The notes beneath the pieces are model-generated. The model saw nothing but the letters and a program-made list of their open reading frames with translations. It had not been told where the DNA came from and searched no databases. Positions 3,068-30,610 of a DNA stretch of 43,915 nt are shown one piece after another. The translations under genes and the position numbers were made by a program. Position 1 is the stretch's first letter. Every line of letters begins with the position of its first letter. The DNA is from Candidatus Kapaibacterium sp. (GTDB lineage Bacteria; Bacteroidota; Ignavibacteria; Kapaibacteriales; UBA2268): assembly GCA_026418625.1 (NCBI GenBank), contig JAOABA010000013.1, forward strand, positions 1 through 43,915, given 5' to 3'.

Positions 3068-3140
3068 CTCCGAGTCATAGGAAGAATTATTTCTTACGAA
3101 TTCTTTATTATTATTTATTGCGTTGAGTCTGAATCAAAGC

Positions 3141-3248: not shown

Positions 3249-3275
3249 CTTGAATACGGGAATCTCCTTTTTCCT

Positions 3276-3529: not shown

Positions 3530-3540
3530 AATGCTATTAT

Positions 3541-6500: not shown

Positions 6501-6954
6501 TCTGAATAGTTTTGTCATTTTGGGCAACTTTGTAGTCTTCTTGAGAAACAATACTTGTGATGTTACGATTAAAAAATTTCCTCTTGAATGTAGTTATAGT
6601 CTGCTTGGTAGTATAATTAATTGTGTCGGGCGTTGAATTACCAAGTCTATATAGATAATATTCTAATTGGGAAGAATCTTGTAATCCAGTTTTTTTATGT
6701 ATCAAATTGTAAGTCAAATAATCCCATTCACCGCAATTATACCTGTCGTGTGTGGTGCGTGGATCGCATTTAAGGGTATATAGCATAAGAATTTTTCTGA
6801 AATTTTCGGGATTATCAGGAAATTTCCAAACCCCACGCCTCTTAGTAATATCATCGAATGTAAGAGTTTGAATAACTGTAGTATCGCTTCCAATCAATAA
6901 ATTTGGGATGAAAGATAAATTGATAATTAGGATGAGCAAGGATAATAGTTTCAT
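3541..6954 (-). CDS. PNGase F-like glycoamidase with inserted LamG domain and T9SS sorting domain
   Basis: Large secreted protein (1137 aa) related to peptide-N-glycosidase F, which cleaves N-glycans from asparagine. Signal peptide at 1-22. The first PNGase F beta-sandwich begins near residue 30 with CGEWDYL at 74-80; its Asp78 aligns with catalytic Asp60 of the Elizabethkingia enzyme (CDEWDRY). The family block YEIGRFITPY recurs almost exactly, but only at 594-603. Between them lie ~510 extra residues, including a LamG/concanavalin-like domain at ~278-488. The second sandwich has CCEWKDNTH (Glu718, aligned with catalytic Glu206) and GWCPG at 762-766. Glu118/Trp120 equivalents are not obvious because that segment is shorter. 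Then come a CARDB/Ig-like segment (~850-935), another beta domain, and a T9SS sorting domain from ~1060 (YVYPNPTNEK) to the end. The family call is strong; activity is inferred. Confidence 0.82.
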   Translation of the reverse strand: MKLLSLLILIINLSFIPNLLIGSDTTVIQTLTFDDITKRRGVWKFPDNPENFRKILMLYTLKCDPRTTHDRYNCGEWDYLTYNLIHKKTGLQDSSQLEYYLYRLGNSTPDTINYTTKQTITTFKRKFFNRNITSIVSQEDYKVAQNDKTIQINSKKFRLQWSLTSKELKNYGFSRGEINRLKFYFEKPILNVKNFKIKMSGGSLDEKFNNTLETYFLYNFEKIDSGWVTFNLLNPFSWNGLSGITFELSLESDSNENIEVKLGAFERESSFFSSISDNFLYFDGINDWVQVENLNLNNLSKFTIESWLKAEQFKSMADIFNYGDKVIIRMGRGSGELYFYINNPDESYAVASNAVSFSEWTHIAMVYDGSQAENKDKLKVFINGKPSILSFNGKIPSITSSKIEKMIIGHFNYKGGIDEVRLWNEALSEATITEWFNKDLTSEHPNYSNILAYYPANENGGTELPDKSSSNKNGTLIGCPEWSSTSSDFLFKEIKKINLTPSFVIIRGEYESTMDSSQIITELVPNPPISIQKYKIENYQPVISEILYGWNDKYEYTFDQNNKVIDSTKNNLEKQIINSKAKYYGKPYDIYDDYEIGRFITPYGINLDLGPDGFSWMYDVTDYAYLLIGDVEFSAGNQQELIDVKFLFIHGTPPRKVLKHDRIWGKMSDYLYKDLSNDIKLSETKIDIQPNAKTFKIKTRITGHGHQSNDGNYPHCCEWKDNTHYLYLNGDDFAEWHIFQYNNCALNPVFPQGGTWPGSREGWCPGDIVKDYEFDATKAIKGNSVLVDYDITKVPTSNQGMGNGNYVMNFDFFQYSEQSFDTDLEIYDVIMPSDWEYYSRKNPICSHPKIVVRNNGKSSVSNVKIRFGVLGGAYKETIWTPMPPIESNQSREIVLSIDNNSFWLGDGTNRFEAEIIEVNGKKDDYSENDKYISTFKLPDLYKNKFVIWYKSNNRPQDYTYTITDLNNRIVFAKNNVSPNTTYTDTIDLPAGCYKFEFLDKNNLGLSYWAYPAQGNGAIQIRDVNGNVLKAFNPDFGRSIYYEFSTGEISFVKDNQSENLIYVYPNPTNEKIIIESEFDFGLCEFSITDISGRTIDSKILNIKEGERIQFDVVNYPTGTYLINFKNKAYNFTKKFIKE

Positions 6955-7091
6955 TGTATTCCCGAAAAAAAATTGAAAATTAACACAGAATTAGGGAATT
7001 AGCAAAATCTTTAATTTCAAAAGTTCGTTTTTATAAATTTTTAAATATTAAATCCGTCAGTAGTGGGACTTTGTTATTAAACATAAGAAGA

Positions 7092-9206
7092 ATGACTTTT
7101 TTAAATCCATTGGTTCTTTTGGGACTACTTGCTTCGGCAATACCCATAATTCTTCACTTCCTGAATCTAAGGAAGCTGAAAACTATTGAGTTTTCTACAT
7201 TGAGATTTTTAAAAGAATTACAAAAGACCAAAATCAGAAGGTTAAAAATCAAGCAACTGATTTTATTGATTCTCAGGATTTTAATTATTACCTTTATTGT
7301 TCTTGCTTTTGCCCGACCAACTATTAAAAGCACTTTGCCGGGTATTGGAACTTATGCAAAAACAAGCTCAGTTTTTGTGATTGATAACTCTTTCAGTCTT
7401 GATGTGTCAGATGAATATGGTAACAGATTTACTCAAGCAAAGAATATAGTTCGAACACTTTTGAATAATCTGAAAGAGGGCGATGAAGCTGCTTTGATAA
7501 AAATGGTTGATGATGAAAACATTAATGAACTTAGTTTTACTAGAAATTTAGAGCTTATCAACGAGGAATTACAGAAAACAAAAATATCATTAAAGACAGC
7601 TAATTTGGAATCAAGCCTTAGAAAAGCTTCGGCATTGCTCGAGAAATCAATGAATTTAATTAAGGATATTTATATTATCACTGATGCTCAACCCAATGTT
7701 TTCTTTAGGGAAAACAAGGATTCACTGAAACTTTTTGATGAAAATACATCGGTTTATTTCATTCCGATTGGATATAACACCGGGAAAAATCTCCAAAACC
7801 TATCTATTGATTCTGTAACTGTAATAACCAAGATTTTTCAAAAAGACAAACCGGTGGAAATTGAAGCACATATCAGAAATCACTCAGAAAAAGAAGTCAG
7901 CGGAGCTTTGATTAGCCTTTTCATCAATAATCAAAGATTAACCCAAAAAATATTCGATTTACCAGCAAAATCCCAAAAAACAATTTTATTGAGTGCACTC
8001 CCGCCAAGCTTTGGAGCAAATACAGCTTATGTTGAGCTTGAAAATGATGCCCTCGAATATGACAACAAGCGACATTTCGGTTTTATAATCCCTGAACAAC
8101 CTAAAATAGCTATTATTGGCAATGGAGAAAAAAGCCGATTTATATCTTTAGTATTGTCCGCTGTGCAACAAGGCAATAATGCTGCATCAAATAGATTTTT
8201 CGGACCAGAACAAATCGGAAACATCAATTTTAATGACTACGATTTAGTAATTTTTGCAGGAGGACCCTATAAAGATTCTGATTTTGATAGAATAAAAAAA
8301 TATCTTGAAAATTCCGGCTCAGTTCTCTTCTTTGCAGATGATTTAACAAACAGAGAAACATTTGTTGCCGGAATGAATAAATTAAATATATCCGGTTTGA
8401 AATCTCAGAAATTTCCGGATAATTCACCGGGGGATTTAACCTCGATTGATAAACTACATCCTCTCTTTGAAGGTGTTTTCAAAGGAACAACAGACAACAA
8501 AAAAGTTGCAGAGAAGGTCGAAATATATCAGGCATTATCAACAAATTCAGGACAGTCTCTTATTGAAATTCCGGGAGGCTCATTAGTAAATGAAGTTCGA
8601 ATTGGTGAGGGAAAGTTATTATACGTTGCTGTAACACCTGATTTAAAATGGAGTTCATTACCGTTGACCGGTCTTTTCCCCGCAATTATCTACCGTAGTG
8701 CTTATTATCTTTCATTTAAACAGGAAATAGGAAAAACAGCTCTGATTGGCGTCCCTATGGTTTTCAATTTACCAAAAAAATATTCAGCAGGAGGAACTTT
8801 CAGAGTAATTGACCCAAAGAACATTGAATCAGCGGTTCAATCTGTAAATTTGCCTTCAGGAGCTTTATTAAGGTTTGATAATAATGAACTTGCGGGATCA
8901 TTTATAATTAAATCTCAGGATAATATTCCAATAACAATCCTTTCTGTTAATACAAATCCTACAGAATCAAATATTAATCCATTGACAGAGCAAGAAATAA
9001 ACAATCAATTTATAAATATTTTGAATAAAAATGTTAATTTTGATGTGATTGAAGATAGAAACAACATTATCAAAGGAATCGAACGGGCAAGAACAGGCAC
9101 AGAGCTTTGGCAATTGGCTATTATACTTGCTCTATGCTGTATAATTGCTGAAATGTTGGTTGCTAAGTCTTCAAAGAATGAATCTTTTGCTATCGAAAAT
9201 TCATAA
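7092..9206 (+). CDS. BatA-like membrane protein with VWA domain
   Basis: Inner-membrane protein of the Bat/aerotolerance-type family, 704 aa from the ATG at 7092. A TTG seven codons earlier is open, but the ATG gives the family-typical N-terminus (MTFLNPLVLLGLLASAIPII). The N-terminal double-transmembrane BatA domain occupies ~1-80: one helix, the basic motif HFLNLRKLK, then a second helix ending FARP. A von Willebrand A domain follows, with the MIDAS-like DNSFS motif near residue 95. The long middle part is beta-rich with a glutamine-amidotransferase-like segment (YDLVIFAGG), and a last hydrophobic helix sits near the C-terminus (LAIILALCCIIAEML). The J-domain gene overlaps its 3' end by 29 nt. 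No MoxR ATPase or other Bat genes are in view, so its pathway stays open. Confidence 0.82.
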   Translation: MTFLNPLVLLGLLASAIPIILHFLNLRKLKTIEFSTLRFLKELQKTKIRRLKIKQLILLILRILIITFIVLAFARPTIKSTLPGIGTYAKTSSVFVIDNSFSLDVSDEYGNRFTQAKNIVRTLLNNLKEGDEAALIKMVDDENINELSFTRNLELINEELQKTKISLKTANLESSLRKASALLEKSMNLIKDIYIITDAQPNVFFRENKDSLKLFDENTSVYFIPIGYNTGKNLQNLSIDSVTVITKIFQKDKPVEIEAHIRNHSEKEVSGALISLFINNQRLTQKIFDLPAKSQKTILLSALPPSFGANTAYVELENDALEYDNKRHFGFIIPEQPKIAIIGNGEKSRFISLVLSAVQQGNNAASNRFFGPEQIGNINFNDYDLVIFAGGPYKDSDFDRIKKYLENSGSVLFFADDLTNRETFVAGMNKLNISGLKSQKFPDNSPGDLTSIDKLHPLFEGVFKGTTDNKKVAEKVEIYQALSTNSGQSLIEIPGGSLVNEVRIGEGKLLYVAVTPDLKWSSLPLTGLFPAIIYRSAYYLSFKQEIGKTALIGVPMVFNLPKKYSAGGTFRVIDPKNIESAVQSVNLPSGALLRFDNNELAGSFIIKSQDNIPITILSVNTNPTESNINPLTEQEINNQFINILNKNVNFDVIEDRNNIIKGIERARTGTELWQLAIILALCCIIAEMLVAKSSKNESFAIENS

Positions 9207-10137
9207 AAATATCTTTGATACTCTGGAAAAAAAGACAAAAAATATTGATAATGCTATAACTGAGCATCCAAGAATTAAAGTTTTACGGCAAAAACTTGAT
9301 TTAGCAAGAGAAAATCTTTTGTCTGTCATAAATGAGTGGTATCGCCTTCATTATGAAATCCAGCCACAAATACTCTATCAGTATGATTTAATTTTTGGAG
9401 AGTTCGAAAAGAAAATTGCCTTACAATCAAAAATAGCCGCTAAGCTTGAACGAAAAATTGAGATTTTCGCTATCAAAGTTCAAAGAGGCGAGAAACTAAC
9501 CAAACAAACAATTGATTTTGTCAATAGGATGGTTGAAAAAGAATTCGAAAAAAAAGATAATGATTTAAAAAATAGATTTGAGAAAGTAGCTGATAGTCCC
9601 AACGAAGAAAAAAGCAAAAATAATGAGCCAAATTCAGAATTGACAAAGGTTTATAGAAAGTTAGTTAAAATTCTTCATCCTGATGTTTCAGGCGAAAGCG
9701 AAGTTGCTCAAAAATACTGGTATGCTGTTCAAGATTCATATCAAAAAGGCAACCTCCAGAGATTAAAATTAATCCTCGAATCCATTTCCTCCAATGCTTT
9801 ACTAAATGATAAAAGCTTTATCATTGACGAAGACTTTCTTCTAAAAGAAATCAAAAAAATTCAATTAATGACGGAGGTTGAAAAAAGAAGAATTGAAAGA
9901 ATGAAATTGAAAGAGCCACTAATCTTTTCAGAAAAATTAAAGGATTCGCTTTGGATTAAAGAAAGACAAAAGAAACTACAGGATAGATTAATTTTGATTG
10001 AAAAAGAGATTCAAACACACGAAAGAATGCTGAAAAACATAATTGGCAATAAAGACTTAGAACCAATTAAAATTTCTAAAGAAGAAGAACAGTTTCAGGA
10101 AGAATTCTACAACCAAACCTATGGCAGAGGAAGATAA
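9178..10137 (+). CDS. Coiled-coil protein with internal J-domain-like segment
   Basis: 319-aa charged, largely helical cytoplasmic protein; no signal peptide. The start chosen is the ATG at 9178, which overlaps the upstream gene by 29 nt; an open ATG 11 codons earlier lies deeper in that gene and encodes only its shadow. A J-domain-like helix II and loop are visible at ~155-170 (LTKVYRKLVKILHPDVSG), with the diagnostic HPD at 167-169 and a plausible helix III after it (AQKYWYAVQDSYQKGN). Long coiled-coil-like stretches flank it (residues 70-140 and 225-310). HPD is the signature by which J proteins stimulate Hsp70/DnaK. The overlap with the BatA-like gene suggests translational coupling and a linked function. 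J-domain identity is likely; the client is unknown. Confidence 0.65.
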   Translation: MNLLLSKIHKNIFDTLEKKTKNIDNAITEHPRIKVLRQKLDLARENLLSVINEWYRLHYEIQPQILYQYDLIFGEFEKKIALQSKIAAKLERKIEIFAIKVQRGEKLTKQTIDFVNRMVEKEFEKKDNDLKNRFEKVADSPNEEKSKNNEPNSELTKVYRKLVKILHPDVSGESEVAQKYWYAVQDSYQKGNLQRLKLILESISSNALLNDKSFIIDEDFLLKEIKKIQLMTEVEKRRIERMKLKEPLIFSEKLKDSLWIKERQKKLQDRLILIEKEIQTHERMLKNIIGNKDLEPIKISKEEEQFQEEFYNQTYGRGR

Positions 10138-10408
10138 AAAATCGAAATCCGTTATTCATACAACATTATAATTACAAACTATTTAAAATCAAATTAAATT
10201 GAACAATCTTATTTGATTTAATTTTTGATTTTGTTAAGTTTAACCGTTTCAAAAAAATGAAAATTTGTTAAATTTACGGTTGAAATTATTACAAATTTAA
10301 TACTTAAATTTAGTTGCATAATTGCTATAGACAGAGTCTTAGCGATTATTTTTTTTTGAGAAAAAAGGATTTCTAATTTGTTTTGTTCACTAATATAAGT
10401 TGGGTGTT

Positions 10409-12619
10409 ATGGATTTAAGTTTAGTTTTTCTAATACCTGTAATTGGTTTGATTGCTTTAATCTACACATTTGCTCGTTCGGCTTGGGTATCTAAGCAAGA
10501 TCCGGGCGATGAGAAGATGCAGAAAATAGCATCTTATATTAATAAAGGTGCTATGGCTTTTCTAAGGGCTGAATACTCTGTTATAGCCATTTTTGTAGTA
10601 ATAATTGGAATATTATTGGCTATACAGGGAGCCTCAGTGGAAGGCTCATCACCATTAGTTGGTTTGTCATTCCTAATAGGAGCTTTATGCTCTGGTTCTG
10701 CCGGGTATATTGGTATGAAAGTAGCAACAAAAGCTAACGTAAGAACGACCAATGCCGCAAGAGACAGCTTGAACAAAGCTCTAAAAATTGCATTTAATGG
10801 TGGATCTGTTATGGGTATGGGGGTTGTTGGACTTGGTGTTGTCGGTCTTAGTTTGCTGTTTATTATTTATGGATACGTATTTAACGCATTCGAACCAAAC
10901 AATACTAATATGATTAATGTTGTAGTAACTGTGGTTACCGGTTTCTCATTTGGTGCTTCTTCGATAGCTCTTTTCGCAAGAGTAGGTGGAGGTATTTACA
11001 CGAAGGCTGCTGATGTTGGTGCTGATCTTGTTGGTAAAGTAGAAGCAGGGATTCCAGAAGATCACCCATTAAATCCTGCTACAATAGCAGACAATGTTGG
11101 TGATAACGTAGGTGATGTTGCTGGTATGGGAGCTGACCTATTCGAATCTTATGTTGGTTCTATTGTATCCACAATGGTTCTTGGGGCAGCATTTATAGGT
11201 TTGACTGAATTTCAATCAACACCTTTTCAAGGTTTCTCAGCCATTTTATTACCTTTATTCCTTGCAGGAGCCGGAATAATTGTTTCAATAATCGGAACTT
11301 TCTTTGTTAGAGTCAAAGAGGGTGGTAATCCACAGGCAGGATTAAATTCAGGGACATTTATAGCGGCTATTCTAATGATAATAGCGTCATATTTTATAAT
11401 TAGCTGGCTACTTCCAAGCTCATTCTCCTTTGATGACCCACTTTACGGAAAAGTTTATGAGGTTACATCTTTGGGAGTTTTCTTTGCAACAATTGTAGGG
11501 TTAATTGCTGGTGTTGGAATTGGACTAATTACTGAGTATTACACCGGTTTAGGCAAGCCACCGGTAAGAAAAATTGCTGAACAATCATTAACAGGTGCGG
11601 CAACAAATATCATTGCAGGACTTGGAACAGGTATGATTTCTACTGCTATTCCAGTTCTATTAATTGCAGTTGCCATAATAATTTCCTTCGCATTAGCTGG
11701 TCTTTATGGAATTGCTATTGCAGCCGTTGGTATGCTTGCAACAACCGGTATTCAATTAGCAGTTGATGCGTATGGTCCTATCGCAGACAATGCAGGTGGT
11801 ATTGCTGAAATGTCCGAATTACCTAAAGAAGTTAGAGGCAGAACTGATAAACTCGACGCAGTTGGAAATTCAACAGCTGCAATCGGAAAGGGTTTTGCTA
11901 TTGGTTCAGCAGCTCTTACCGCTCTTGCTCTATTTGGAGCTTATATGACAACAGCTCACGTCAAATCAATAGATATTTCACAGGCAAATGTTATGGCAGG
12001 TTTGTTTATTGGCGCTTTAATGCCTTTCATTTTTTCTTCACTAGCAATGGGTGCTGTTGGTCGTGCAGCTATGCATATGATTAAGGAAGTTAGACGTCAA
12101 TTTAATGATATACCTGCTTTGAAAAATGCACTCGAAGTTATGAAAAGAGTAGGGGATAAAGAGCAATCTGAATGGTCTAAAGAGGATTTAGACACATTCC
12201 ACGCTGCCGAAGGTAAAGCTGAATACGAAAAATGTGTAGCAATTTCAACAAAGGCTGCTATTCGCCAAATGATTATCCCGGGTCTAATGGCTGTTCTTGT
12301 TCCTGTTATTGTTGCTTTCATTCCATTCTTCGGTAAAGAAGCTTTAGGTGGTTTATTAGCTGGTGTAACGGTAACAGGTGTTTTAATGGCTATTTTCCAA
12401 GCAAATGCTGGAGGTGCTTGGGATAATGCAAAGAAAATGTTTGAAGAAGGTGTTGTGATTGACGGAGTAAGGTATTACAAAAAATCCGATCCACACAAGG
12501 CTGCAGTTGTTGGCGATACAGTTGGCGATCCCTTCAAAGATACATCCGGACCATCCATTAATATTCTGATTAAGTTAATGTCAATTGTGTCATTAATTTT
12601 AGCAACCCTTTTAGTTTAA
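10409..12619 (+). CDS. hppA: Membrane-bound pyrophosphatase ion pump, K+-dependent type
   Basis: Integral membrane pyrophosphatase (736 aa, usual family length, ~16 helices) that couples PPi hydrolysis to H+ or Na+ export. ATG at 10409 preferred over the TTG at 10400. Signature motifs: [20 protein letters not shown] (substrate/Mg site, DX7KXE), then [21 protein letters not shown], and near the C-terminus [16 protein letters not shown]. At the position that separates K+-independent enzymes (Lys) from K+-dependent ones (Ala), the sequence reads [10 protein letters not shown], with Ala, predicting K+ dependence. Whether it moves Na+ or H+ cannot be settled by eye. It stands alone behind a 270-bp AT-rich leader and ends at a strong hairpin shared with the convergent flagellin operon. 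Confidence 0.96.
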
Positions 12620-12635
12620 AATTAGATTTATAAAT

Positions 12636-12669
12636 AAAAAAAGCTGTCTCGAGAGGGACAGCTTTTTTT
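12636..12669. terminator. Bidirectional rho-independent terminator between hppA and flagellins
   Basis: A7, then stem GCTGTCTC / GGGACAGC (one G-U pair) closed by a GAGA tetraloop, then T7. The A tract on one side and T tract on the other make it work for both converging transcripts: hppA from the left and the flagellins from the right. Confidence 0.92.
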
Positions 12670-12703
12670 ATTTTGGTTTGTGTTAAATAATTGAATAAAA
12701 AAA

Positions 12704-13639
12704 TTAGCCACGTAATAGATTTAAGTATGATGCACCGTTCTGGTTGGCTTGAGCTAAAGATATTAAAGAAGCTTGTTGCAGGAATTGAGCTTTAATCAAT
12801 TCGAGTTGTTCCTGAGCAACATCAGCATCTTCGAGTCTTGAAATAGCCGCGTTATAATTGACAATTTGACCTTTGAGCAATTCTTCTTGCGATTGAAGTC
12901 TGTTTTGAATACCACCAAGATAAGCAGCGACCTTGTTAGCATTGTTTAAAGCAGTTGATAAAGATGCTAAAGTTAAATTCATCATAGAAATGCTAAAGAT
13001 GCCTAAATCAGAATCACTGACATTATTAAGTGCTTCGAGGTTTAAATTCGAAACACCTGCAAAATGTCCATTTCCTATTGAATTCACTATAAAGTTATTC
13101 GAAGGAACATTAAAGTCTGGATTGCTGGATGTCATATCAATGGAAATTGTCAATAGATGATGAGCGGCATTTGAACCAATGTTGAAATCTCCATAAAAAG
13201 TGCTATCGAGCAATTGTCTGCCACCAAAAACAGTAGAATCAACAACGGTTTGGATTTGTTGTGCCATTCGATAGGCTGATTTTGCAAGTGCAACTTTTTC
13301 ATCTGTTCCCATTGCACCTGATGCTGCGCTCGATGCTGCTTCTTTGATAAGTGTTACAAGCCCATTTATGTTGTCAAGTGCGTCCTGCAAAATGCTTGTA
13401 ACATTGAGAGCGTCGCTTACTGTTTTAATAGCAGCTTTCAATGTCCCATTTCTTGCTTGTAAAGCTCTAACAGTTATATAACCGGCAACATCATCAGCTG
13501 CGTTATTAATCTTTTTTCCTGTTGAAAGTCTTAACTGCCTTAATGAAATGTTTTTACTTGCTGCATCAAGTGAATTATAAGCATTCTCAGCCTGAATATT
13601 AGTATTAATTCTTGCTTGAGCCCCTGTAGCGAATGGCAT
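12704..13639 (-). CDS. fliC: Flagellin, downstream copy
   Basis: Flagellar filament subunit of 311 aa. The N-terminal D0/D1 region is canonical (RINTNIQAENAYNSL, LRLSTGKKINNAADDVAGY). So is the C-terminal D1/D0 region (NYNAAISRLEDADVAQEQLE, FLQQASLISLAQANQNG, ending LLRG). The middle ~80 residues form only a small variable region, so this is a short flagellin without large D2/D3 domains. It starts MPFATG, four to six residues longer than usual before the conserved IxTN. A ribosome site (AGGGGTAGG) lies just upstream. Only 26 nt separate it from the other flagellin, so it is read from the same promoter. By eye the two copies are roughly two-thirds identical and nearly identical in both terminal helices. 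Confidence 0.95.
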   Translation of the reverse strand: MPFATGAQARINTNIQAENAYNSLDAASKNISLRQLRLSTGKKINNAADDVAGYITVRALQARNGTLKAAIKTVSDALNVTSILQDALDNINGLVTLIKEAASSAASGAMGTDEKVALAKSAYRMAQQIQTVVDSTVFGGRQLLDSTFYGDFNIGSNAAHHLLTISIDMTSSNPDFNVPSNNFIVNSIGNGHFAGVSNLNLEALNNVSDSDLGIFSISMMNLTLASLSTALNNANKVAAYLGGIQNRLQSQEELLKGQIVNYNAAISRLEDADVAQEQLELIKAQFLQQASLISLAQANQNGASYLNLLRG

Positions 13640-21932: not shown

Positions 21933-22814
21933 TTATTGAATTCTTCTCAATTTCTTTCGTGAGCTCATTTCGCTTTCATAAACTTTTTTAATACCGTCTC
22001 CAAGCGAAGCTTCGATATCTCGAATATTTGATATTAACCTTATCAATCCGCCGATTTCTACAGAAGCTGCCTGATCGGTTCCCCACATAGCTCTATCAAG
22101 TGTTATATGCCTTTCAACGAAACAAGCTCCGAGTGTAACAGCTGCCCAAGTCGGTGCCAATCCGACTTCGTGCCCTGAATAACCAATTGGAATATTTGGA
22201 TATTTGTTTTGTAAAGTATTAATTACTCTTAAATTTAATTCTTCAACTTTACAAGGATAAGTAGAGGTAGCGTGAGCAATAAGAAGGTTATCCTCCCCAA
22301 TGGAATTTACGGCTGCTTCGATTTCTTCCATTGTGGACATACCTGTCGAAATCATTAATGGTTTTCCTGTGGATTTCATTTTTTTGAGCAATTCAATATC
22401 TGTCAGTGAAGCTGATGGTGCTTTATATGCAGGAACATCAAATTGCTCAATAAAATCAACTGAAGGTTCATCCCAGCAGGAGGCAAACCATTTAATATTA
22501 TGTTCTTTGCAAAATCTGTCAATTTCAGCGTATTCGTCTTTACCAAATTCAACTTTATAACGATAATCAATATATGTCATTCTTCCCCAAGGTGTGTCTC
22601 GTTCAATATACCATTGATCTTTAGGAACGCAGATTTCAGGGGTTCTTTTCTGAAATTTGACTGCATCAGCTCCGGCAGTTGCAGCTCCAGCAATCATTTT
22701 TTTTGCAAGTTCAACTGAGCCATTGTGATTAATACCAATTTCAGCAATGACATAAGTTGGCTCGCCATCACCAACATATTTATCACCAATTTTAATTTTT
22801 CTGTTCGAATTCAT
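21933..22814 (-). CDS. NeuB-like sialic-acid-synthase family protein lacking the SAF domain
   Basis: TIM-barrel enzyme (293 aa) of the family that condenses phosphoenolpyruvate with an aldose to make a nonulosonic or related keto sugar acid. Recognised from YVIAEIGINHNG, AGADAVKFQKR, STGMSTMEEIE, and the Mn-site histidines in IGYSGHEVG and ERHITLD, followed by TDQAAS. Canonical NeuB/PseI/LegI enzymes are ~340-350 aa with a C-terminal antifreeze-like SAF domain that contributes to the partner active site. Here the protein stops after SSRKKLRRIQ and that domain is absent. Strong ribosome site AAGGAG upstream. Last gene of the six-gene operon, 24 nt after the SDR gene. Substrate aldose unknown; no NeuC epimerase or PseB/LegB dehydratase is nearby. 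Confidence 0.85.
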   Translation of the reverse strand: MNSNRKIKIGDKYVGDGEPTYVIAEIGINHNGSVELAKKMIAGAATAGADAVKFQKRTPEICVPKDQWYIERDTPWGRMTYIDYRYKVEFGKDEYAEIDRFCKEHNIKWFASCWDEPSVDFIEQFDVPAYKAPSASLTDIELLKKMKSTGKPLMISTGMSTMEEIEAAVNSIGEDNLLIAHATSTYPCKVEELNLRVINTLQNKYPNIPIGYSGHEVGLAPTWAAVTLGACFVERHITLDRAMWGTDQAASVEIGGLIRLISNIRDIEASLGDGIKKVYESEMSSRKKLRRIQ

Positions 22815-22838
22815 ATTTTTCTCCTTTTTAAATAAAAA

Positions 22839-23654
22839 TTACCAAATAGTCCAGCCACCATCAACGACAAGATTTGCTCCAGTCATATAAGAAGAAGCAT
22901 CACTAGCAAGGAATAGCAAAGCACCCTTATAATCAGTAGGCTGTGCCATTCGCTTTAATGGTGTTCTTTTAGAATAGTTTTCAATGAAGTAATCTGCTTG
23001 ATTATTTTCGACACCCCCGGGTGAAAGAGCATTAACCCTGACATTTTGCTCGCCCCAATAAGCAGCAAGAAAGCGAGTGAAAGCTAAAACAGCACCTTTT
23101 GCAGTTGGATAAGCTGGTGATTTGTAAAATAATCTGCTTCCATCAGGTTTTAGGTATAGAGATTGGTCAGGTGCAACAATTCCATAAGTTGATGCGATAT
23201 TTATAATACTTCCTTTGTTCTGCTTTGCCATTTCAGTTCCGAAAACCTGTGAGCAAATGAACATACCTGTTACATTTACATCTATGACTTTTCGGAATAA
23301 ATCAAGCGGGTAGTTCTCAAATTTTGATTCTTCGAGCATTGAAACAGGGTTTTCAACCATATCATTAATTGCGGCATTATTTACCAATATGTCAATATGG
23401 TTAAATTTTTCAAGAATTTTTTGTTTTGCTTCTTCAACTTGCTGTTTATTTGTTATATCAAAAGCCAAACCCATTGATTCAGATGGTAACTCTTTTGCAA
23501 AAGCTATGCATTTTTCTTCACTGATGTCACAGACAACAACATTAGCTCCAGCTTCAGCTAAAGCTATGCAATGTTGTTTGCCGATAAGACCTAAAGCACC
23601 TGTTACTATGGCTGTTTTGCCTTCTAAACTGAATAATTCAATAACATTTTTCAT
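22839..23654 (-). CDS. Short-chain dehydrogenase, PtmA-like (flagellin/glycan modification type)
   Basis: Classical SDR of 271 aa. NAD(P)-binding TGALGLIG near residue 18, NNAA near 92, catalytic Ser in NIASTYG and Tyr-x3-Lys in AYPTAKG, and C-terminal FLASDASSYMTGANLVVDGG. The APDQSLY insert and RVNALSPGGVEN resemble the PtmA oxidoreductases seen in legionaminic-type flagellin-modification loci (recalled family resemblance). It starts 7 nt after the aminotransferase stop and is fifth of six genes in the operon. Likely oxidises or reduces a sugar hydroxyl or carbonyl before or after amination. Substrate unknown. Confidence 0.88.
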   Translation of the reverse strand: MKNVIELFSLEGKTAIVTGALGLIGKQHCIALAEAGANVVVCDISEEKCIAFAKELPSESMGLAFDITNKQQVEEAKQKILEKFNHIDILVNNAAINDMVENPVSMLEESKFENYPLDLFRKVIDVNVTGMFICSQVFGTEMAKQNKGSIINIASTYGIVAPDQSLYLKPDGSRLFYKSPAYPTAKGAVLAFTRFLAAYWGEQNVRVNALSPGGVENNQADYFIENYSKRTPLKRMAQPTDYKGALLFLASDASSYMTGANLVVDGGWTIW

Positions 23655-23661
23655 AATTTTT

Positions 23662-24996
23662 CTATGATTTTTTGGGTTTAAGATTAAAATTACCGACTCT
23701 TCTAAATACTGGCTCTAATACTTTCCCTTTAAGGTATTTACTAATATTACCTTCTTCTACTGCTTGTTTTAGAATAGGTAAAACTTTTTTATAGACATCG
23801 AGTGTGTATGATATGTCTTCATCTTTATGAGAGAATGACATATTATGAAAACCGCTCCAGAGAATACCATTTTTTATCATTTCCTGTTGAACCAGAGTTT
23901 TCATTTCGAGTGGATTTCCGGCTGAAGAGTCAAAAGTGATTATAGACCTGAAATTATAACCACCAGCCTTTGTATATGGCATATTGAGCGATTCAGCGAT
24001 TTGGTTATAGCCATCTTTTAGTTTTTTCCCTTGTCTATCTAAATATTCGGGGACATTTTTTTCAATAATTTCTGTAATTGTTGCTTTTGTAGCTGCAAGA
24101 GAAAGAGCTTCGCCACCGAAAGTAGTAAAGAAGAAAACATCACGCTCTAGTAAATCCATTATGTTCTTTCTGCCAGTAAGAACTGAGATTGGCATTCCAT
24201 TGGCAAGAGCTTTAGAGTAAGTTGCAAGGTCTGGTTTAATGCTAAAATATTCTTGGGCTCCACCTTTTGCCATTCTAAAGCCTGTCCACATTTCATCGAA
24301 AATTAAAATGATGCCTTTTCCGGTGCAGATTTCCCTGAGCTTGTGAAGGAAATTATCTTTTGGTTCCTCGAATACTACTGGTTCAAGTATTATAGCTGCT
24401 GTATCATCATCAATAGCATTAAGGACACTTTCCAAGTCATTATAGTTAAAAGTATATGTTAAATCCTTAGTAACTTGGGGGATTCCTTTATCTCTATCAG
24501 TAACTCCAATATACCAGTCGTGCCAGCCGTGGTATCCGCAGCAAAGAATGGTATTTTTACCAGTATATGCTCTTGCTAATCTGACTGCCGCAGTCGTTAC
24601 ATCACATCCTGTTTTACTGAATCTGACAGACTCAGCATTAGGAATAATAGATTTGATTAATTCAGCAACTTCAACTTCAAGTGGGTGCATAAGAGAAAAA
24701 GTTATACCATCTCTTAATTGCTCAATTATAGCATTGTCAACTTTGTCGTAGCAGTATCCAAGCGATAAAGGACCAACTCCCATTGTATAATCAAGATACT
24801 CATTTCCATCAACATCCCAGACGTGACAGCCTTTTCCACGTTTCAAATATATTGGTGCAACTCCTTTAGTGTGTTGTCCGGGTCCTTTGGCTAAGGTTTG
24901 TGTAACACAGGGAATTAATCCTAATGCTCTTTCGTAATATTTTTCAGATTCCGTAATAACAGGATAATTTTCATTAAAACCTATTTTATTTATCAT
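23662..24996 (-). CDS. Class III PLP aminotransferase, glutamate-1-semialdehyde-aminomutase-like
   Basis: PLP fold type I enzyme of 444 aa. Substrate/PLP region SKTGCDVTTAAVRLARAYTG, CGYHGWHDWY, PLP-pyridine Asp234 in IFDEMWTGFR and PLP Lys262 in YSKALANGMP. It is most like glutamate-1-semialdehyde aminomutases, but its place in a sugar operon argues against a haem role. A sugar-carbonyl aminotransferase or mutase is more likely. Most nonulosonate pathways use DegT-type aminotransferases instead, so this is an unusual choice. Ribosome site GAGGAC precedes the ATG; 12 nt from the transketolase stop. Confidence 0.88.
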   Translation of the reverse strand: MINKIGFNENYPVITESEKYYERALGLIPCVTQTLAKGPGQHTKGVAPIYLKRGKGCHVWDVDGNEYLDYTMGVGPLSLGYCYDKVDNAIIEQLRDGITFSLMHPLEVEVAELIKSIIPNAESVRFSKTGCDVTTAAVRLARAYTGKNTILCCGYHGWHDWYIGVTDRDKGIPQVTKDLTYTFNYNDLESVLNAIDDDTAAIILEPVVFEEPKDNFLHKLREICTGKGIILIFDEMWTGFRMAKGGAQEYFSIKPDLATYSKALANGMPISVLTGRKNIMDLLERDVFFFTTFGGEALSLAATKATITEIIEKNVPEYLDRQGKKLKDGYNQIAESLNMPYTKAGGYNFRSIITFDSSAGNPLEMKTLVQQEMIKNGILWSGFHNMSFSHKDEDISYTLDVYKKVLPILKQAVEEGNISKYLKGKVLEPVFRRVGNFNLKPKKS

Positions 24997-25008
24997 TTTT
25001 TTAGTCCT

Positions 25009-26967
25009 CTATTGTGGTGCATCAACAGTAAATCTATCTGTAATTTTAATATCATATTTTTCGCCGGTAATTCTTTCGGCAAGAGACTTTCCGTCAAGTT
25101 TGTGATATCCAAGAACCTCTGGTGGAGTTCCGCATACCGGATACTCATCCAATCCGAATCTTTCAAAACTGAAATATTCTTGCTTTTTAATTTTTGTAAT
25201 ATTATTTAAAAGCAAATCTCCGAGACCACCGAAATTAGAATGGTCTTCAAGAACAAATATTTTTGAATGTTTCTTTGTTACGGACTCAAGCCAATGATTA
25301 TCAACTCTATTCAACCAAGGCATATTGACAACCATAAGCGAAAATCCTTTTGTTTCAAGAAGCTCGGAAGCAAGAAGAGCCTCGTGCAGCATAACTGGAC
25401 CATAAGCAAAAATAATAGCATCAGTTCCTTCTTTCAAGACTGTTCCCTTGCCCAGTTCCAGCTTATAATTTTGAGGAAGTTCAATGATTCTTGGAGAGGG
25501 ACCGATAATCAATCGAATGGCACAGTTTACATCTGCTTCATTTACGCAAAAATCAACAACCTGCTTAGTTTCGATAGAGTTGCAGGGTTCTACAATTATC
25601 ATATTAGGTATTGCACCTAAGAGCGATATATCCCTGACGCTTTGATGTGATTTTCCGGGTCCGGCAGGTAATATTCCGGCGAAATGACAGGCATAAATTA
25701 TCTTGGTCTTTTCACAAGCATTATTATATATTTGTTCATTAGCTCTTGATGTAAGAAAGCTTGAAAATGAACTAACTACGGGCAGAAGTCCCATTCTTGC
25801 GAGTCCACCGGCAAGAGAGGTCATATCCTGCTCGGCAATTCCATTTTCGATAAATCTTTCAGGATATTTATATTCAAATTTTCTTAGTCCGCAATCAGCT
25901 GAAAGGTCTCCATCAATAACTATAAAATCTTTTCTCGTTTCAGCAATTTCGCAAAGTGCTTCGCCAAAAGCGTTTTTGACAAATTCCTGAGAAACATTGC
26001 TTGGCACTTTTGTTTCTTCAGGAAGCTCTTTGAAATGTATTTCATTTAGACCTAATTCTTTGGCTAAACTATTTATTCGATTCCTTAATTCTTCTTCGGC
26101 AATTGAATAATGCTCATCAGACGGAGCCCCAGAATGCCAACGATAAAGAATTCTTCCTGTTTCATCCTTTTCATAATTCTCAAAAATTGAAACTCCTTTT
26201 CCTTTGATTGTGTCGGCTATAATAAATTTCGGTTTGTCATTAACCTCTTTAATCATTTCGAAAGTTCGTTCTAAATCTCTGTAATTGTGACCATTGCAGT
26301 AAGTTACAAACCAGCCGAACGCAGAAACCTTTGTCGCTAAATCATCGATGCTATTAACATCATTGACAAGCATATCTGTCTGGAATTTATTACGGTCAAT
26401 TATTACGGTTAAATTCGTTACTTTCTGATGAGCTGTGGCTTGTAAAGATTCGTATATCTGACCTTCTTGAAATTCCCCGTCCCCGGTTAAAACAAACACT
26501 CTACCTTTTTGTCCTAAATACTTTTTGGCAATTGCCATTCCACGCCCTTTTGAAATACCCATCCCAAGTGAACCAGTATTAGCTTCAATTCCGGGAATAC
26601 TGACATCAGGATGACCGTCAAGACCGCCAAATCGTCTTAATTTCAAAATATCATCTTCACTTAATATCCCGACTGAATAGAAGAAAGAGTAAAGTCCGGG
26701 AACATCGTGACCTTTTGATGAAAAATATATGTCTCTATCTGGAGAATTAATGCCGACATCTAAAACATTTAATTCTGATAAATAAAGATATGTTACTATA
26801 TCCATCGCACTGAAACTTGTGCCCAAGTGCCCTGAACCGGCTTTTTTGACAGAAACAAGAGTATTATACCTGCACATATCAGCATATAGCTGTAAAAATA
26901 AATGGTTTTCTTTTCCTTTTGGTCTAACTCTATCGAATTCTGTCTTTTCGATTAATTTTAATCTCAT
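25009..26967 (-). CDS. Transketolase, single-chain, in a sugar operon
   Basis: Thiamine-diphosphate transketolase of 652 aa. The start chosen is the ATG at 26967, with GAGG 5 nt upstream; a TTG six codons earlier is open. N-terminal module: GSGHLG, SKGHDVPGLY, ThDP motif GDGEFQEGQ..IDRNK, and KGKGVSIFEN. The central pyrimidine module has ENGIAEQDM with the catalytic Glu; a C-terminal transketolase module follows (ILPAGPGKSHQSVRDI, FVLEDHSNFGGLGD). Clustered sugar transketolases are often split into two subunits; this one is fused. Set between a cytidylyltransferase and an aminotransferase, it probably moves a two-carbon ketol unit to build or reshape the sugar skeleton rather than serving the pentose phosphate cycle. 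That role is inference. Confidence 0.87.
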   Translation of the reverse strand: MRLKLIEKTEFDRVRPKGKENHLFLQLYADMCRYNTLVSVKKAGSGHLGTSFSAMDIVTYLYLSELNVLDVGINSPDRDIYFSSKGHDVPGLYSFFYSVGILSEDDILKLRRFGGLDGHPDVSIPGIEANTGSLGMGISKGRGMAIAKKYLGQKGRVFVLTGDGEFQEGQIYESLQATAHQKVTNLTVIIDRNKFQTDMLVNDVNSIDDLATKVSAFGWFVTYCNGHNYRDLERTFEMIKEVNDKPKFIIADTIKGKGVSIFENYEKDETGRILYRWHSGAPSDEHYSIAEEELRNRINSLAKELGLNEIHFKELPEETKVPSNVSQEFVKNAFGEALCEIAETRKDFIVIDGDLSADCGLRKFEYKYPERFIENGIAEQDMTSLAGGLARMGLLPVVSSFSSFLTSRANEQIYNNACEKTKIIYACHFAGILPAGPGKSHQSVRDISLLGAIPNMIIVEPCNSIETKQVVDFCVNEADVNCAIRLIIGPSPRIIELPQNYKLELGKGTVLKEGTDAIIFAYGPVMLHEALLASELLETKGFSLMVVNMPWLNRVDNHWLESVTKKHSKIFVLEDHSNFGGLGDLLLNNITKIKKQEYFSFERFGLDEYPVCGTPPEVLGYHKLDGKSLAERITGEKYDIKITDRFTVDAPQ

Positions 26968-26977
26968 AAAATCCTCG

Positions 26978-27805
26978 TTAATCAATAATTTTTGTTTGAC
27001 TTTTATCTATTGTTTTCAATTCATTTAAATTTTTTCGATACCAATTAACCCCGCAATATTTTTCATTGATTTTCTTAATATCAGGTCTTTTTTCTAATAA
27101 GTCAAGAATATCATACATTGAGAAAATCCGTCCATCATCATACAATTCTTCATAAACAGCTTTAATAAACTCGTAATCCTCAAGGTAATCTATTGTGAAC
27201 CTGTGGGTCATAGATAAATCAAGACCATTTTCCATCACTACGTTTCCAATTCTAAATCTTTCAGGTTGATCCCATATGAAAGGGGTTGTATGTTCCCTTT
27301 CAAAATCTTTTTTTGCTTCCTTATGAGCAATTTCAAGAATTTGAAAAGGCATAATTTCTACATCGTTACCGTCTGGATAAGTTGCGGGATGAAGATTACT
27401 GACAAAGTCGTAATTATTTTGATTTTCAATATAAAATTTTAAAACCTTATCAATCACATCAGGGTCAATCAATGGACAATCTGATGGAATTTTTACAACT
27501 GCGTCAGGGTTAAACTCCAATGCAGCCTTATAGTGTCTGTCAAGTAAATCTGTTGGATGACCACGAAAAACGTTAATATTATTATCTTTGCAAATATCAA
27601 TTATTGGATCGTCAATCTTTTCTGTTGTAGTTGCAACAACCAAATCAAAAGGTGTTTTAGCAGCAAGTATTCTTTCCAATTGTAGTAGAAGGATTGGTTT
27701 TCCGCAGATATGTTTCAGGATCTTACCGGGAAGCCTTGTAGATCCAGAACGTGCCTGAACAACTATTAAAATTTTTGAATTTTTCTTGTTGGTATGTTCG
27801 TCCAT
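26978..27805 (-). CDS. spsF: SpsF-like cytidylyltransferase
   Basis: Nucleotidyltransferase of the CMP-NeuA/CMP-KDO synthetase superfamily (275 aa), expected to activate the keto sugar as a CMP or similar nucleotide derivative. Motifs: ILIVVQARSGSTRLPGKIL (nucleotide loop), LVVATTTEKIDD, FRGHPTDLLDRHYKAA, KIPSDCPLIDP (metal Asp), and THRFTIDYLEDYEFIKAVYE. These match SpsF of Bacillus spore-coat polysaccharide loci, which also pair it with a NeuB-like SpsE. Start ATG at 27805 shares its A with the TGA of the upstream glycosyltransferase-like gene. Second gene of the operon, 10 nt before the transketolase. Confidence 0.88.
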   Translation of the reverse strand: MDEHTNKKNSKILIVVQARSGSTRLPGKILKHICGKPILLLQLERILAAKTPFDLVVATTTEKIDDPIIDICKDNNINVFRGHPTDLLDRHYKAALEFNPDAVVKIPSDCPLIDPDVIDKVLKFYIENQNNYDFVSNLHPATYPDGNDVEIMPFQILEIAHKEAKKDFEREHTTPFIWDQPERFRIGNVVMENGLDLSMTHRFTIDYLEDYEFIKAVYEELYDDGRIFSMYDILDLLEKRPDIKKINEKYCGVNWYRKNLNELKTIDKSQTKIID

Positions 27806-28878
27806 CAATTTGAATAATTATTTCTAAATCTTGCTCTAATGTTTGATATCTTTGAAGAAATTGGTGTGAAGGATCGTATAGTTTTATATTGTTTTGGTCT
27901 TTTGGTTGTTGAATCGTAAATATGTTTTCTGGCTAATTCTGCTATATTTTTTGCAGATGTGCCATTGTTTTGAATTGGTGAAAGTTTCTTTAATTTTTCA
28001 ATCGGAAAATCCGAATAAACTTCTTTACCCAAAGCAATGCCTGTGTAAACAACAGTAGAAAATTTGGTTATTAAAACATCACAATTAGCAATCATTTCGT
28101 GAACATTTCCACTTGTATAAATAATTGCCCCGGGGGCGTAGGTGTTTATTTCCTTAACTGCTCTCGAAACAATTTCATTAGGATGTAATTTGAAAATTAA
28201 TTGCCTGCCGTTAGCTATTTCAACAGCATTTTGTATGAATTTTTTTCTGTTTTCATATCTTAAAGTTTCACGAGTGTCAGATGTCGCAACCAGCACAAAA
28301 TTTTTGTGTGGGAAGTTATTGTTTCTATATTGTTCACAATTATCAAAATTCGGAATACCAGTTACAACAATTTTTTGGGGATCAACTCCATTTTCAATAA
28401 ATAATTCTTTATAACCTTCGGAGGCGACGCAAAGATAGTCGAATGCATCAGACAGACCGAAAACAGAAGTATCACCTGCGACATATAAGGGAAGGTTTAA
28501 CCATTTTACAAGGTAGAAACCAATTTTTTTCGGGTCAGTCATACCCTCCTGAACGAGTATTATTTTCTTGTTTCTAATATTTTTGGGTATTATAATATCG
28601 CTACAAGTGATTACAAGGTCATAATCGTGTGACAATCCGTAATAATCTATTTTTAAGTCGTGCTCACGTAGAAAGTTTAATGTTGATTGTTGAAATTTTC
28701 CTCCCGGACCAACCAAGGTCCAATCAAGCATACCTGTCCTTGCGAACAGGTCAATGATGCCGTCACCATAGTATGGAGTGAAATAACAATCAAATTCAGG
28801 TAGCTCCTGAGAGATTTTATACATCATAGTTGTTTGGTTCAATGATCCGCATATAAGCAATATTTTTTTATTGCTCAT
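27805..28878 (-). CDS. GT-B-type putative glycosyl/glycerophosphotransferase
   Basis: First gene of the sugar operon. ATG at 28878 preferred because AGGA lies 6 nt upstream and the Rossmann start MSNKKILLICGS follows; an ATG 13 codons earlier (28917) is open but has no ribosome site. 357 aa from the chosen start. The C-terminal half resembles the CDP-glycerol glycerophosphotransferase / capsule GT-B superfamily: VTGIPNFDN, LIFKLHPNE, ANCDVLITKFSTVVYTGIAL. The N-terminal half is less familiar (SQELPEFDCYFTPYYGDGI). No membrane segments. Plausibly transfers the CMP-activated sugar to its acceptor. Which acceptor (flagellin, lipid A core, capsule) is not shown. Confidence 0.7.
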   Translation of the reverse strand: MSNKKILLICGSLNQTTMMYKISQELPEFDCYFTPYYGDGIIDLFARTGMLDWTLVGPGGKFQQSTLNFLREHDLKIDYYGLSHDYDLVITCSDIIIPKNIRNKKIILVQEGMTDPKKIGFYLVKWLNLPLYVAGDTSVFGLSDAFDYLCVASEGYKELFIENGVDPQKIVVTGIPNFDNCEQYRNNNFPHKNFVLVATSDTRETLRYENRKKFIQNAVEIANGRQLIFKLHPNEIVSRAVKEINTYAPGAIIYTSGNVHEMIANCDVLITKFSTVVYTGIALGKEVYSDFPIEKLKKLSPIQNNGTSAKNIAELARKHIYDSTTKRPKQYKTIRSFTPISSKISNIRARFRNNYSN

Positions 28879-29095
28879 CATATTTCCTGAACCATTTATT
28901 TTATTTGTTCTTTTCATATTTTAGTTCGTAAAAAAATGCAAACTAAAAATTTCATATTAATTTTTAGTTAATACGTCAAAAATCATAAAAGAGTTTATTT
29001 TGTTAACATTTTTTCTAAAGAATAATTAGAAAAAAAATTTATTAACTCTTATTTTAATCTGCTCAAAACTCTTTCAAAGTAAAAATTTTAATGAA

Positions 29096-29755: not shown

Positions 29756-29866
29756 TATTATTTTATAATCAATTATGAAATTATGACTTTTATTTTGTAT
29801 CCTACAAATTTATATATAAATTTAGAAACTAAAAAAAAGATATTTCGATTTTCTCTAATTTTCAAT

Positions 29867-30610
29867 ATGATTTACTTTATTTCGGATGTTCATCTTGGAT
29901 TTGAGACAAGAGCTCTCGATAAAAAAAGAGAAGATTTGCTACTTAATACTCTGGATATTATTTCAAAGGATTGCAAAACCTTAGTAATATTGGGAGATCT
30001 TTTCGATTTTTGGTTTGAATACAAAACTGTCATACCAAAAATTTTTTACCGAACGATTACAAAATTTTATGAATTAAAGCAAAAAGGTATTGAAATAATC
30101 TATTTAATGGGAAACCACGATTTTGGACATAAGAACTTTTTTTCAGAAGAACTTGGTGTTGAAATTATTAAAAATGATGTTGAAACTGTTTTTAATGGGA
30201 AAAAATTTTACTTATCACACGGAGACGGTAAGTCATTTTATGACTCAATATATAACTTCCTCAAAAAGATACTAAGAAATCCAATTTCACTATATTTATA
30301 TACTAAACTTCATCCTGATTTAGGTATCAAGTTAGCTTCTGGCTCATCAAAAGAAAGCCGAAAGCATACCAGCAAAAAAAAATACGGTGAAATCGAAGGT
30401 ATGGAGCAATTTGCCGAACAAAAGATTTCTGAAGGCTTTGATTATGTCGTTATGGGACATCGTCATAAATTAATATTGAAGCAAATCGGAAATGGCTTTT
30501 ACGTAAATTTGGGTGATTGGTTTAATGAGCCACATATTGGTAGTTTCGATGGTGATAAGTTTAAATTAATTAAAGTTAGAGAACTAATTAGCGAGAAAAT
30601 TAATTTTTGA
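29867..30610 (+). CDS. lpxH: UDP-2,3-diacylglucosamine pyrophosphatase-like metallophosphoesterase
   Basis: Calcineurin-like phosphoesterase of 247 aa. The ATG at 29867 is chosen because MIYFISDVHLG is the standard family start; the 28 upstream codons are AT-rich leader. All metal-site motifs are present: SDVHLG, GDLFDFW, GNHD, SHGDG, GHRH. The two Asp-x-Phe-rich helices and HPDLGIKLA match LpxH-type enzymes, which make lipid X in lipid A synthesis at the inner membrane. It supports a Gram-negative outer membrane. A Bacteroidota-style LpxH-like paralogue of other specificity cannot be excluded. Confidence 0.82.
   Translation: MIYFISDVHLGFETRALDKKREDLLLNTLDIISKDCKTLVILGDLFDFWFEYKTVIPKIFYRTITKFYELKQKGIEIIYLMGNHDFGHKNFFSEELGVEIIKNDVETVFNGKKFYLSHGDGKSFYDSIYNFLKKILRNPISLYLYTKLHPDLGIKLASGSSKESRKHTSKKKYGEIEGMEQFAEQKISEGFDYVVMGHRHKLILKQIGNGFYVNLGDWFNEPHIGSFDGDKFKLIKVRELISEKINF

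Follow-up and report, generated by a model that had tools for sequence, protein, structure and literature searches.

What would a transketolase and an aminotransferase do between a cytidylyltransferase and a NeuB-type synthase? The question is raised by a stretch of 43,915 nucleotides (nt) from Candidatus Kapaibacterium sp. (assembly GCA_026418625.1, contig JAOABA010000013.1; the whole stretch is hereafter called the window), in which six minus-strand genes in a row encode a GT-B-fold protein, an SpsF-type cytidylyltransferase, a fused transketolase, a class III aminotransferase, a short-chain dehydrogenase/reductase (SDR) and a NeuB-type synthase without the SAF domain. A preliminary description of this DNA had read them as one operon for a keto sugar acid activated by cytidine monophosphate (CMP), wherein the transketolase would build the carbon chain ahead of condensation with phosphoenolpyruvate (PEP). 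Comparison with other genomes indicates that a single pathway very probably contains NeuB, the transketolase and the aminotransferase. The reading which we tentatively prefer, at somewhat below even confidence, has two branches, whereby a CMP-activated 3-deoxy-2-ulosonic acid would be put on an amine-bearing, probably lipid, acceptor from the same cluster.

The operon and its recurrence in other genomes

The six genes, from first to last, are:
27805..28917, minus strand: GT-B-fold protein (start at ATG 28917 or at the in-frame ATG 28878; Pfam Glyphos_transf)
26978..27808, minus strand, ATG 27805: SpsF-type cytidylyltransferase (Pfam CTP_transf_3, 97.5 bits)
25009..26985, minus strand, ATG 26967: fused transketolase (three Pfam transketolase domains in one chain; tree and residue counts below)
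23662..24996, minus strand: class III pyridoxal-phosphate aminotransferase (Pfam Aminotran_3, 170.2 bits)
22839..23654, minus strand: SDR (Pfam adh_short_C2, 176.3 bits)
21933..22814, minus strand: SAF-less NeuB-type synthase, for PEP condensation (Pfam NeuB, 257 bits)

With the ATG starts used, the intergenic gaps are -1, 10, 12, 7 and 24 nt; the coordinates and Pfam thus confirm the gene row, the spacing and the missing SAF domain of the preliminary description and support a single operon. CTP_transf_3, the transketolase domains, Aminotran_3, the SDR and NeuB all score over their Pfam cut-offs. The SpsF-type protein is probably a CMP-ulosonate synthetase and, together with NeuB, supports the proposed CMP-activated 3-deoxy-2-ulosonate. 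The aminotransferase, judged by its sequence, is of the glutamate-1-semialdehyde-aminomutase-like subfamily (NCBIfam NF004856, 395.6 bits vs a cut-off of 486), while the SDR, with the YxxxK pattern present in 67/67 family members, stays below cut-off against all curated models among the matches listed (25 of 222), the best of these being the gluconate 5-dehydrogenase subfamily. The usual precursor enzymes had been called absent; no NeuC, PseB/C/H or LegB/C was confidently identified among the six operon genes by Pfam and NCBIfam; five of the six belong clearly to other families, and the GT-B gene has a 2-epimerase-like fold, which is taken up below. A genome-wide search for NeuB returned only this one match in the own genome, so no second complete nonulosonate pathway is expected there. 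A promoter/terminator scan gave no informative signal (39 promoter-like sites compared with 28.2, sd 5.3, in shuffles). Near the operon start lies a relative of the LpxH-like UDP-2,3-diacylglucosamine diphosphatases (29783-30610, plus strand; 102.2 vs a cut-off of 134).

In 60 relatives, any NeuB match was seen in 22, of which 13 have 68-95% identity to the window form, the remaining matches being at 28-40%; an ortholog of the aminotransferase (at least 590 bits; next best 274 bits) is found in exactly the same 13 relatives as the SAF-less NeuB (Fisher 1.9e-13, kinship ignored). A scan of species genomes with NeuB peptides found 114 relatives, from which 80 loci were kept and joined by 9 further relative loci to give 89. 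Linkage was counted on the same strand within 10 kb with bit-score thresholds set by us; the gene tables leave out L032, L033, L040 and L041 as copies of L045, L051, L079 and L091, and G063, the genome of L051, is relative G055 again. For the trees, other loci of one gene were entered once and alignment rows were cut back to the region that matched. The aminotransferase is linked on the same strand in 53 of the 89 loci; 42 of these extend 6.5 kb or more upstream, and there the counts are 40 for the glycosyltransferase (GT), 41 for SpsF, 40 for the SDR and 33 for a complete transketolase. Most often the genes follow one another as GT-SpsF-TkN-TkC-AT-SDR-(HAD)-NeuB-(hydroxylase), where TkN and TkC are the transketolase halves and AT is the aminotransferase. 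An order that recurs in so many genomes is more than chance; the conserved synteny suggested as a check is therefore present, and the possibility that the operon is unique to this genome is ruled out by the relatives and the scanned loci.

The genes also occur in separate groups. Of the 11 genomes whose NeuB locus is without the aminotransferase, six carry it elsewhere at 55-70% identity (G063, that is G055, among them); in L140 and L141 the displaced gene has TkN, TkC and the SDR beside it, and G055 keeps GT-SpsF-TkN-TkC together at a separate locus. It is because of these displaced sets, the linked-locus counts and the shared 13 relatives that the three enzymes are assigned to one pathway. 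Whole or in parts, the set occurs in records labelled as Bacteroidota, Ignavibacteriota, Chlorobiota, Myxococcota, Nitrospirota, Actinomycetota and Gammaproteobacteria, mostly metagenome bins, and a plasmid of the cultivated methanotroph Methylomagnum ishizawai bears GT-SpsF-TkN-TkC-AT-SDR-NeuB-HAD. In L078, a PIN-domain gene and a gene of 226 residues without a Pfam match lie between TkC and the aminotransferase (7150-8233).

Other plasmid and phage records were considered as carriers. Plasmid relatives of the aminotransferase (38-45% among the matches listed, Methylomagnum aside) were set aside, no NeuB being annotated in the two haloarchaeal regions read, and in an unannotated rhizobial plasmid region the aminotransferase query alone matched. 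A Hymenobacter plasmid has a NeuB with the rest of the cluster not annotated nearby. The aminotransferase query against phage gave 60 records, all below 60% identity. In the open-licence literature, judged mostly by titles, no title on a transketolase-NeuB cluster was found.

The synthase and transketolase families

The window NeuB is a firm family member (257 bits vs the cut-off of 22.1 for PF03102) with no SAF match by Pfam, and its chain stops ahead of where SAF could start. Eighty-nine relatives end -2 to +19 residues from its end, and 13 of 14 ordinary NeuBs run 51-62 residues longer, the fourteenth being a cut frame. It falls below the NCBIfam equivalog cut-offs for NeuB_NnaB (250.8 vs 399.65) and PseI (206.5 vs 340.25), both scores being lowered by the absent SAF part. 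Its best PDB match, at only 132 bits, is 6ncs, a NeuB chain of 290 residues which is likewise too short for SAF and which we take to be from Leptospira. The pathways of pseudaminic (Pse) and legionaminic (Leg) acid with SpsE/SpsF-like genes also place NeuB, a cytidylyltransferase and an aminotransferase in one operon; the present cluster differs in its class III aminotransferase, in that none of its six genes encodes a 4,6-dehydratase or an acetyltransferase, and in the sub-threshold PseI and NeuB_NnaB scores.

All SAF-less rows fall into a single clade of the NeuB tree (90 rows, support 100/100), within which a subclade of 67 rows (100/99) holds all genomes where the aminotransferase was seen; L107 was placed in no group, and L089 was put by default in the aminotransferase-bearing group though its locus shows none. 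Four Chlorobium genomes and L049 nest within the 67-row clade, and no aminotransferase ortholog was found in them. The four Chlorobium NeuB loci (L084, L087, L094, L096) lie among PPK2, HSP90 and VIT1 family genes (by Pfam for L084), L087 and L094 having a HAD-group neighbour by clustering. Outside the 67 rows are Chloroflexi and others, many of them with an SDR, a cytidylyltransferase-HAD fusion (one example checked by Pfam) and NeuB, an arrangement termed type 2; an aminotransferase ortholog was found in 0 of 23 type-2 genomes, many of which are incomplete bins, the best match being 266 bits and 38%. One type-2 cluster, in the Anaerolineae locus L098 (419-11772), contains ATP-sulfurylase/APS kinase, sulfotransferase and Gfo/Idh/MocA genes, a content which suggests a sulfated sugar acid. 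A short NeuB relative (843-bp gene, 44.6%) was also seen on a plasmid of Azospirillum thermophilum (L280, 7744-10941), adjoined by a HAD and accompanied in the cluster by LegB, LegC and NeuC.

The window transketolase carries three domains with the catalytic Glu and His on one chain, a form linked in the own genus and in L034, L037 and L038, whereas in most clusters the enzyme is split into two proteins. A tree built from 65 N-terminal halves separates the cluster-split form, the fused form and a split form found across relatives, which is presumed to be housekeeping and labelled so; since the two cluster branches are long where they meet, their kinship to one another is unsure. The second transketolase of the own genome is split and falls in the housekeeping clade. 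The closest two-chain PDB transketolase is the split enzyme of Carboxydothermus (6yaj/6yak), from which the cluster enzymes differ in lacking residues kept in the split housekeeping clade of these genomes. Three alignment positions (Arg, Ser and His), which we take to be the sugar-phosphate site of transketolases, are all present in 14/14 housekeeping rows and together in 0/45 cluster rows. The Arg occurs in 0/34 cluster-split and 0/11 fused rows, with gaps in 24/34 of the former; the Ser in 1/34 and 0/11, with Asp in 11/11 fused rows; and the His in 0/34 and 0/11, all 45 rows having Phe, Val or Ile there (Phe in 11/11 fused rows and in Methylomagnum), with Leu in the Streptomyces relative described next. 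The catalytic Glu and His are kept in 45/45 cluster rows, and a further Arg in all. Two clades in one genomic slot that both lack these residues suggest a shared, unusual acceptor.

On a plasmid of Streptomyces sp. NBC_01237 (L281, ~2562-13416), a NeuB (with SAF), an SDR and a fused transketolase (41% to that of the window) stand side by side; behind them come an RmlD-type reductase, a HAD of a different type and an aminotransferase of class III that the window's own did not match. The set adjoins genes for a glyoxalase-type dioxygenase, an FMN-dehydrogenase and a class I aminotransferase, which presumably resemble those of hydroxyphenylglycine synthesis; this is likely a natural-product cluster combining hydroxyphenylglycine-type genes with the NeuB, SDR and transketolase set. 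The coupling of transketolase, SDR and NeuB thus recurs with other paralogs, which supports one pathway and equally allows a route confined to sugars.

Phosphatase, GT-B protein and lipid-type neighbours

A HAD phosphatase resembling KdsC and the phosphatase of Kdn-9-phosphate (Kdn, ketodeoxynonulosonic acid) lies in the cluster of 33 of the 53 aminotransferase-bearing loci, its best models being the Kdn-9-phosphatase (154.7, cut-off 180) and the KdsC subfamily (150.9, cut-off 107). In addition, Lys56, Arg57 and Arg72 are common to at least 97% of the SAF-less NeuB rows and absent or rare in the long forms; together with the HAD they would fit a phosphorylated NeuB acceptor such as the Kdn route and that of animals use. 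The Kdn pathway from mannose-6-phosphate via Kdn-9-phosphate is given as established in PMC6200933, and a synthase-phosphatase fusion of Leptospira is a published bacterial case in PMC3438082. In L120, L123 and L064 the NeuB reading frame measures 423-483 residues; the HAD query has a match at this place, and gene calling gave no HAD of its own beside it. Judged on their sequences, these are probable HAD-NeuB fusions. The operon as a replacement for synthesis of ketodeoxyoctonate (Kdo) was rejected, KdsA being present in the own genome and over cut-off in 51/60 relatives.

Tests of the GT-B gene as a NeuC/WecB-type epimerase were negative by sequence and positive by fold. The Pfam family Glyphos_transf is reached at 22.7 (cut-off 22.1) and Epimerase_2 remains below its cut-off (26.2 vs 30.6); hhalign against E. 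coli WecB gave a probability of 2.6%, and a strict 2-epimerase motif scan of the fetched DNA found none. An AlphaFold model (mean confidence score pLDDT 87.6; 35 sequences, namely P0006 and 34 of 35 references, L069 being left out) aligns with UDP-N-acetylglucosamine 2-epimerases at Z 18.1 (root-mean-square deviation 3.7, 279 aligned) and with TagF at Z 15.1 (4.8, 278 aligned). The motifs HPNE and QEG are kept in 44/46 and 43/46 family members. A transferase with a CMP or CDP (cytidine diphosphate) donor is likelier than an epimerase.

Of the 48 aminotransferase-linked loci that extend 1 kb or more past NeuB, 38 have a gene of the PF04116 hydroxylase family downstream of it, and another 7 loci have one although no aminotransferase is linked there. 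Over all 48 loci where the hydroxylase gene is linked, it starts 3.4 kb past the NeuB match in L104 and 6-338 nt past it in the other 47. Copies scoring at least 232 bits are present in 8/13 NeuB-positive and 0/47 other relatives, weaker family members occurring in some of the others. The three His boxes are intact, including those of the unlinked own-genome copy, and the only NCBIfam match is OlsE (118.5 bits vs a cut-off of 475). The Methylomagnum cluster is followed by an LplT-like transporter, a GNAT N-acyltransferase domain and a PlsC-type acyltransferase; two-domain acyltransferases of this kind lie in L047 and L038 (~4 kb away in L038), with a cut one in L080. The likeness to ornithine-lipid systems (OlsB/OlsA, OlsF, OlsE) comprises the OlsE match, Acetyltransf_5 domains in the neighbourhood of three clusters and, by a fourth, a cut protein with Acyltransf_2; the differences are a hydroxylase far below the OlsE cut-off, the NeuB/SpsF/transketolase context and the absence of acyltransferases from the window. 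Related clusters beside lipid-modifying genes hint at an uncharacterised sugar-bearing lipid, and the chance that the product is lipid-linked is put at slightly under even. The flagellin glycan raised in the preliminary description finds nothing that points to it, the recurrent neighbours in relatives being lipid genes. A small-multidrug-resistance-type gene follows seven clusters (one checked by Pfam). A neighbour of 583 residues in L034 and L037 was dropped as an OlsF-like candidate, having no match with OlsF-like proteins and a C-terminal half that matches many loci.

Proposed pathway and competing explanations

From gene families, synteny, co-occurrence, transketolase clades, missing residues and intact His boxes, all read at the sequence level, we infer every chemical step below, as well as the two-branch order, the lipid nature and the product. 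In the first branch, the SAF-less NeuB would condense PEP with its aldose acceptor, probably a sugar 6-phosphate, the HAD phosphatase (in the clusters of relatives, not in the window operon) would take off the phosphate and SpsF would form the CMP-sugar; a phosphorylated branch is proposed because the HAD is present in 33/53 loci and stands near the Kdn-9-phosphatase and KdsC models. In the second branch, the transketolase would put a two-carbon ketol on a non-phosphorylated aldehyde, giving an alpha,alpha'-dihydroxyketone which the class III aminotransferase would convert to a 2-amino-1,3-diol; such an acceptor is proposed because the presumed phosphate-site residues are missing and the catalytic Glu and His are kept. 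Transketolase/transaminase cascades to 2-amino-1,3-diols are used in biocatalysis. That the two enzymes make an amino-diol here is a tentative proposal, with the odds leaning against it. The SDR may adjust a precursor or the product, and the GT-B protein would join both branches. In relatives, the membrane di-iron hydroxylase and OlsB/OlsF-type acyltransferases would complete a lipid, a reading drawn from the linkage and distribution of the hydroxylase and from the acyltransferases near the Methylomagnum, L047, L038 and L080 clusters.

A more specific version, which we regard as speculative and improbable, is a sphingolipid-like pathway without serine palmitoyltransferase: the transketolase would add the ketol to a long-chain aldehyde, the aminotransferase would turn the resulting 1,3-dihydroxy-2-ketone into a 2-amino-1,3-diol long-chain base, the GT would add a Kdn-like acid from its CMP form, and the hydroxylase and an N-acyltransferase would complete a bacterial sialo-lipid. 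PMC6200933 reports that a haptophyte alga has a sphingolipid linked to Kdn.

Several observations weigh against joining the activated acid to an amine-bearing lipid. The HAD is missing from 20/53 loci, and the window operon has no HAD, no hydroxylase and no acyltransferase, no OlsB/OlsF-type acyltransferase match being found in the window; the HAD of the own genome fits KdsC better (165.8 vs 144.9) and, with KdsA in the genome, may serve Kdo only. No hydroxylase match was obtained in 5/13 NeuB-positive relatives, and OlsF-type acyltransferases occur in only 3 of 93 loci searched, plus Methylomagnum. The phosphate-site assignment is taken over from transketolase structures, its Arg position is a gap in 24/34 cluster-split rows, and DXS rows also lack Arg, Ser and His, which makes the absence suggestive only. 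At fold level the GT-B protein could be a 2-epimerase-like enzyme (Z 18.1). L089 has GT, SpsF, transketolase, SDR and hydroxylase beside NeuB, yet its locus gave no match to the aminotransferase; a linked SDR was matched in neither L065 nor L078, and of the transketolase L065 has only the C half; and the SDR remains with NeuB where the aminotransferase is absent, which leaves its branch uncertain. The Azospirillum NeuB sits in a Leg-type cluster, so a short NeuB alone is no marker of the six-gene system, and the Streptomyces row, with no lipid genes identified, fits a sugar route as well.

Such a linear, sugar-only route is possible although rather unlikely: the SDR and aminotransferase would make an amino-ketose, the transketolase would trade two carbons to give the aldose acceptor, and NeuB, SpsF and the GT would place an amino-ulosonate on a glycan. 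It accounts for the fixed coupling of transketolase, aminotransferase, SDR and NeuB, and the Streptomyces row, with another HAD and an aminotransferase of class III lying a few genes further along, agrees with it. It also has a precedent in the aminoshikimate route, where the amino-tetrose phosphate used by a PEP-condensing synthase comes from transketolase; as transketolase likewise stands ahead of PEP condensation in providing erythrose-4-phosphate for 3-deoxy-arabino-heptulosonate-7-phosphate synthase, the order which the preliminary description considered new is not new in principle. Yet the cluster transketolases lack the presumed sugar-phosphate residues, some NeuB-clade members are in genomes where no aminotransferase ortholog was found, an extra step would be needed as transketolases give ketoses or shorter aldoses, and the recurrent hydroxylase is left unexplained. 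Chain building before PEP condensation is also not favoured because the HAD linked in relatives suggests a phosphorylated NeuB product while the transketolases are without the residues presumed to bind a sugar phosphate.

It is unlikely that the operon makes an ordinary nonulosonate glycan, with NeuB, SpsF and the GT adding a Kdn-like acid, the transketolase, aminotransferase and SDR decorating a second sugar, and the lipid genes adjoining by chance. The established Kdn pathway, the resemblance of the HAD to Kdn-9-phosphate phosphatase and the type-2 clusters that keep SDR, cytidylyltransferase-HAD fusion and NeuB would suit it; the phosphorylated Kdn/N-acetylneuraminic acid route indeed shares with the cluster a NeuB-family synthase, a cytidylyltransferase and, in relatives, the HAD, and differs from it in the missing SAF, the SpsF-type cytidylyltransferase (type 1) and the added transketolase, class III aminotransferase and SDR. 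Chance sits poorly with a hydroxylase found so regularly and so closely behind NeuB, the high-scoring copies of which are confined to NeuB-positive relatives. A transketolase of central metabolism lying in the operon by coincidence is very improbable. The enzyme is missing from 11 clusters, mainly of Ignavibacteria, and in 7 of these genomes a fused form (61-63% identity to that of the window) stands alone, as it probably does in G078; none was seen unlinked in the other 3, weak negatives since the query was a cluster-split C half. On the other hand, the other transketolase of the own genome, a split one, belongs to the clade that recurs among the relatives, two deeply separate clades fill one slot and both lack the presumed phosphate site. 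As read from sequence, the transketolase is part of the system, given the unlinked fused form in 7/11, the two clades in one slot and the Streptomyces relative; its place outside the presumed housekeeping clade supports the earlier reading.

Overall, the analysis defines a conserved gene set across several phyla, which a cultivated methanotroph also carries. If the reading preferred here or its sugar-only counterpart is true, a dedicated transketolase with an altered substrate site, kept next to an aminotransferase of class III and a synthase of the sialic-acid type, would constitute a new route to an amino-ulosonate or a sugar-bearing aminolipid.

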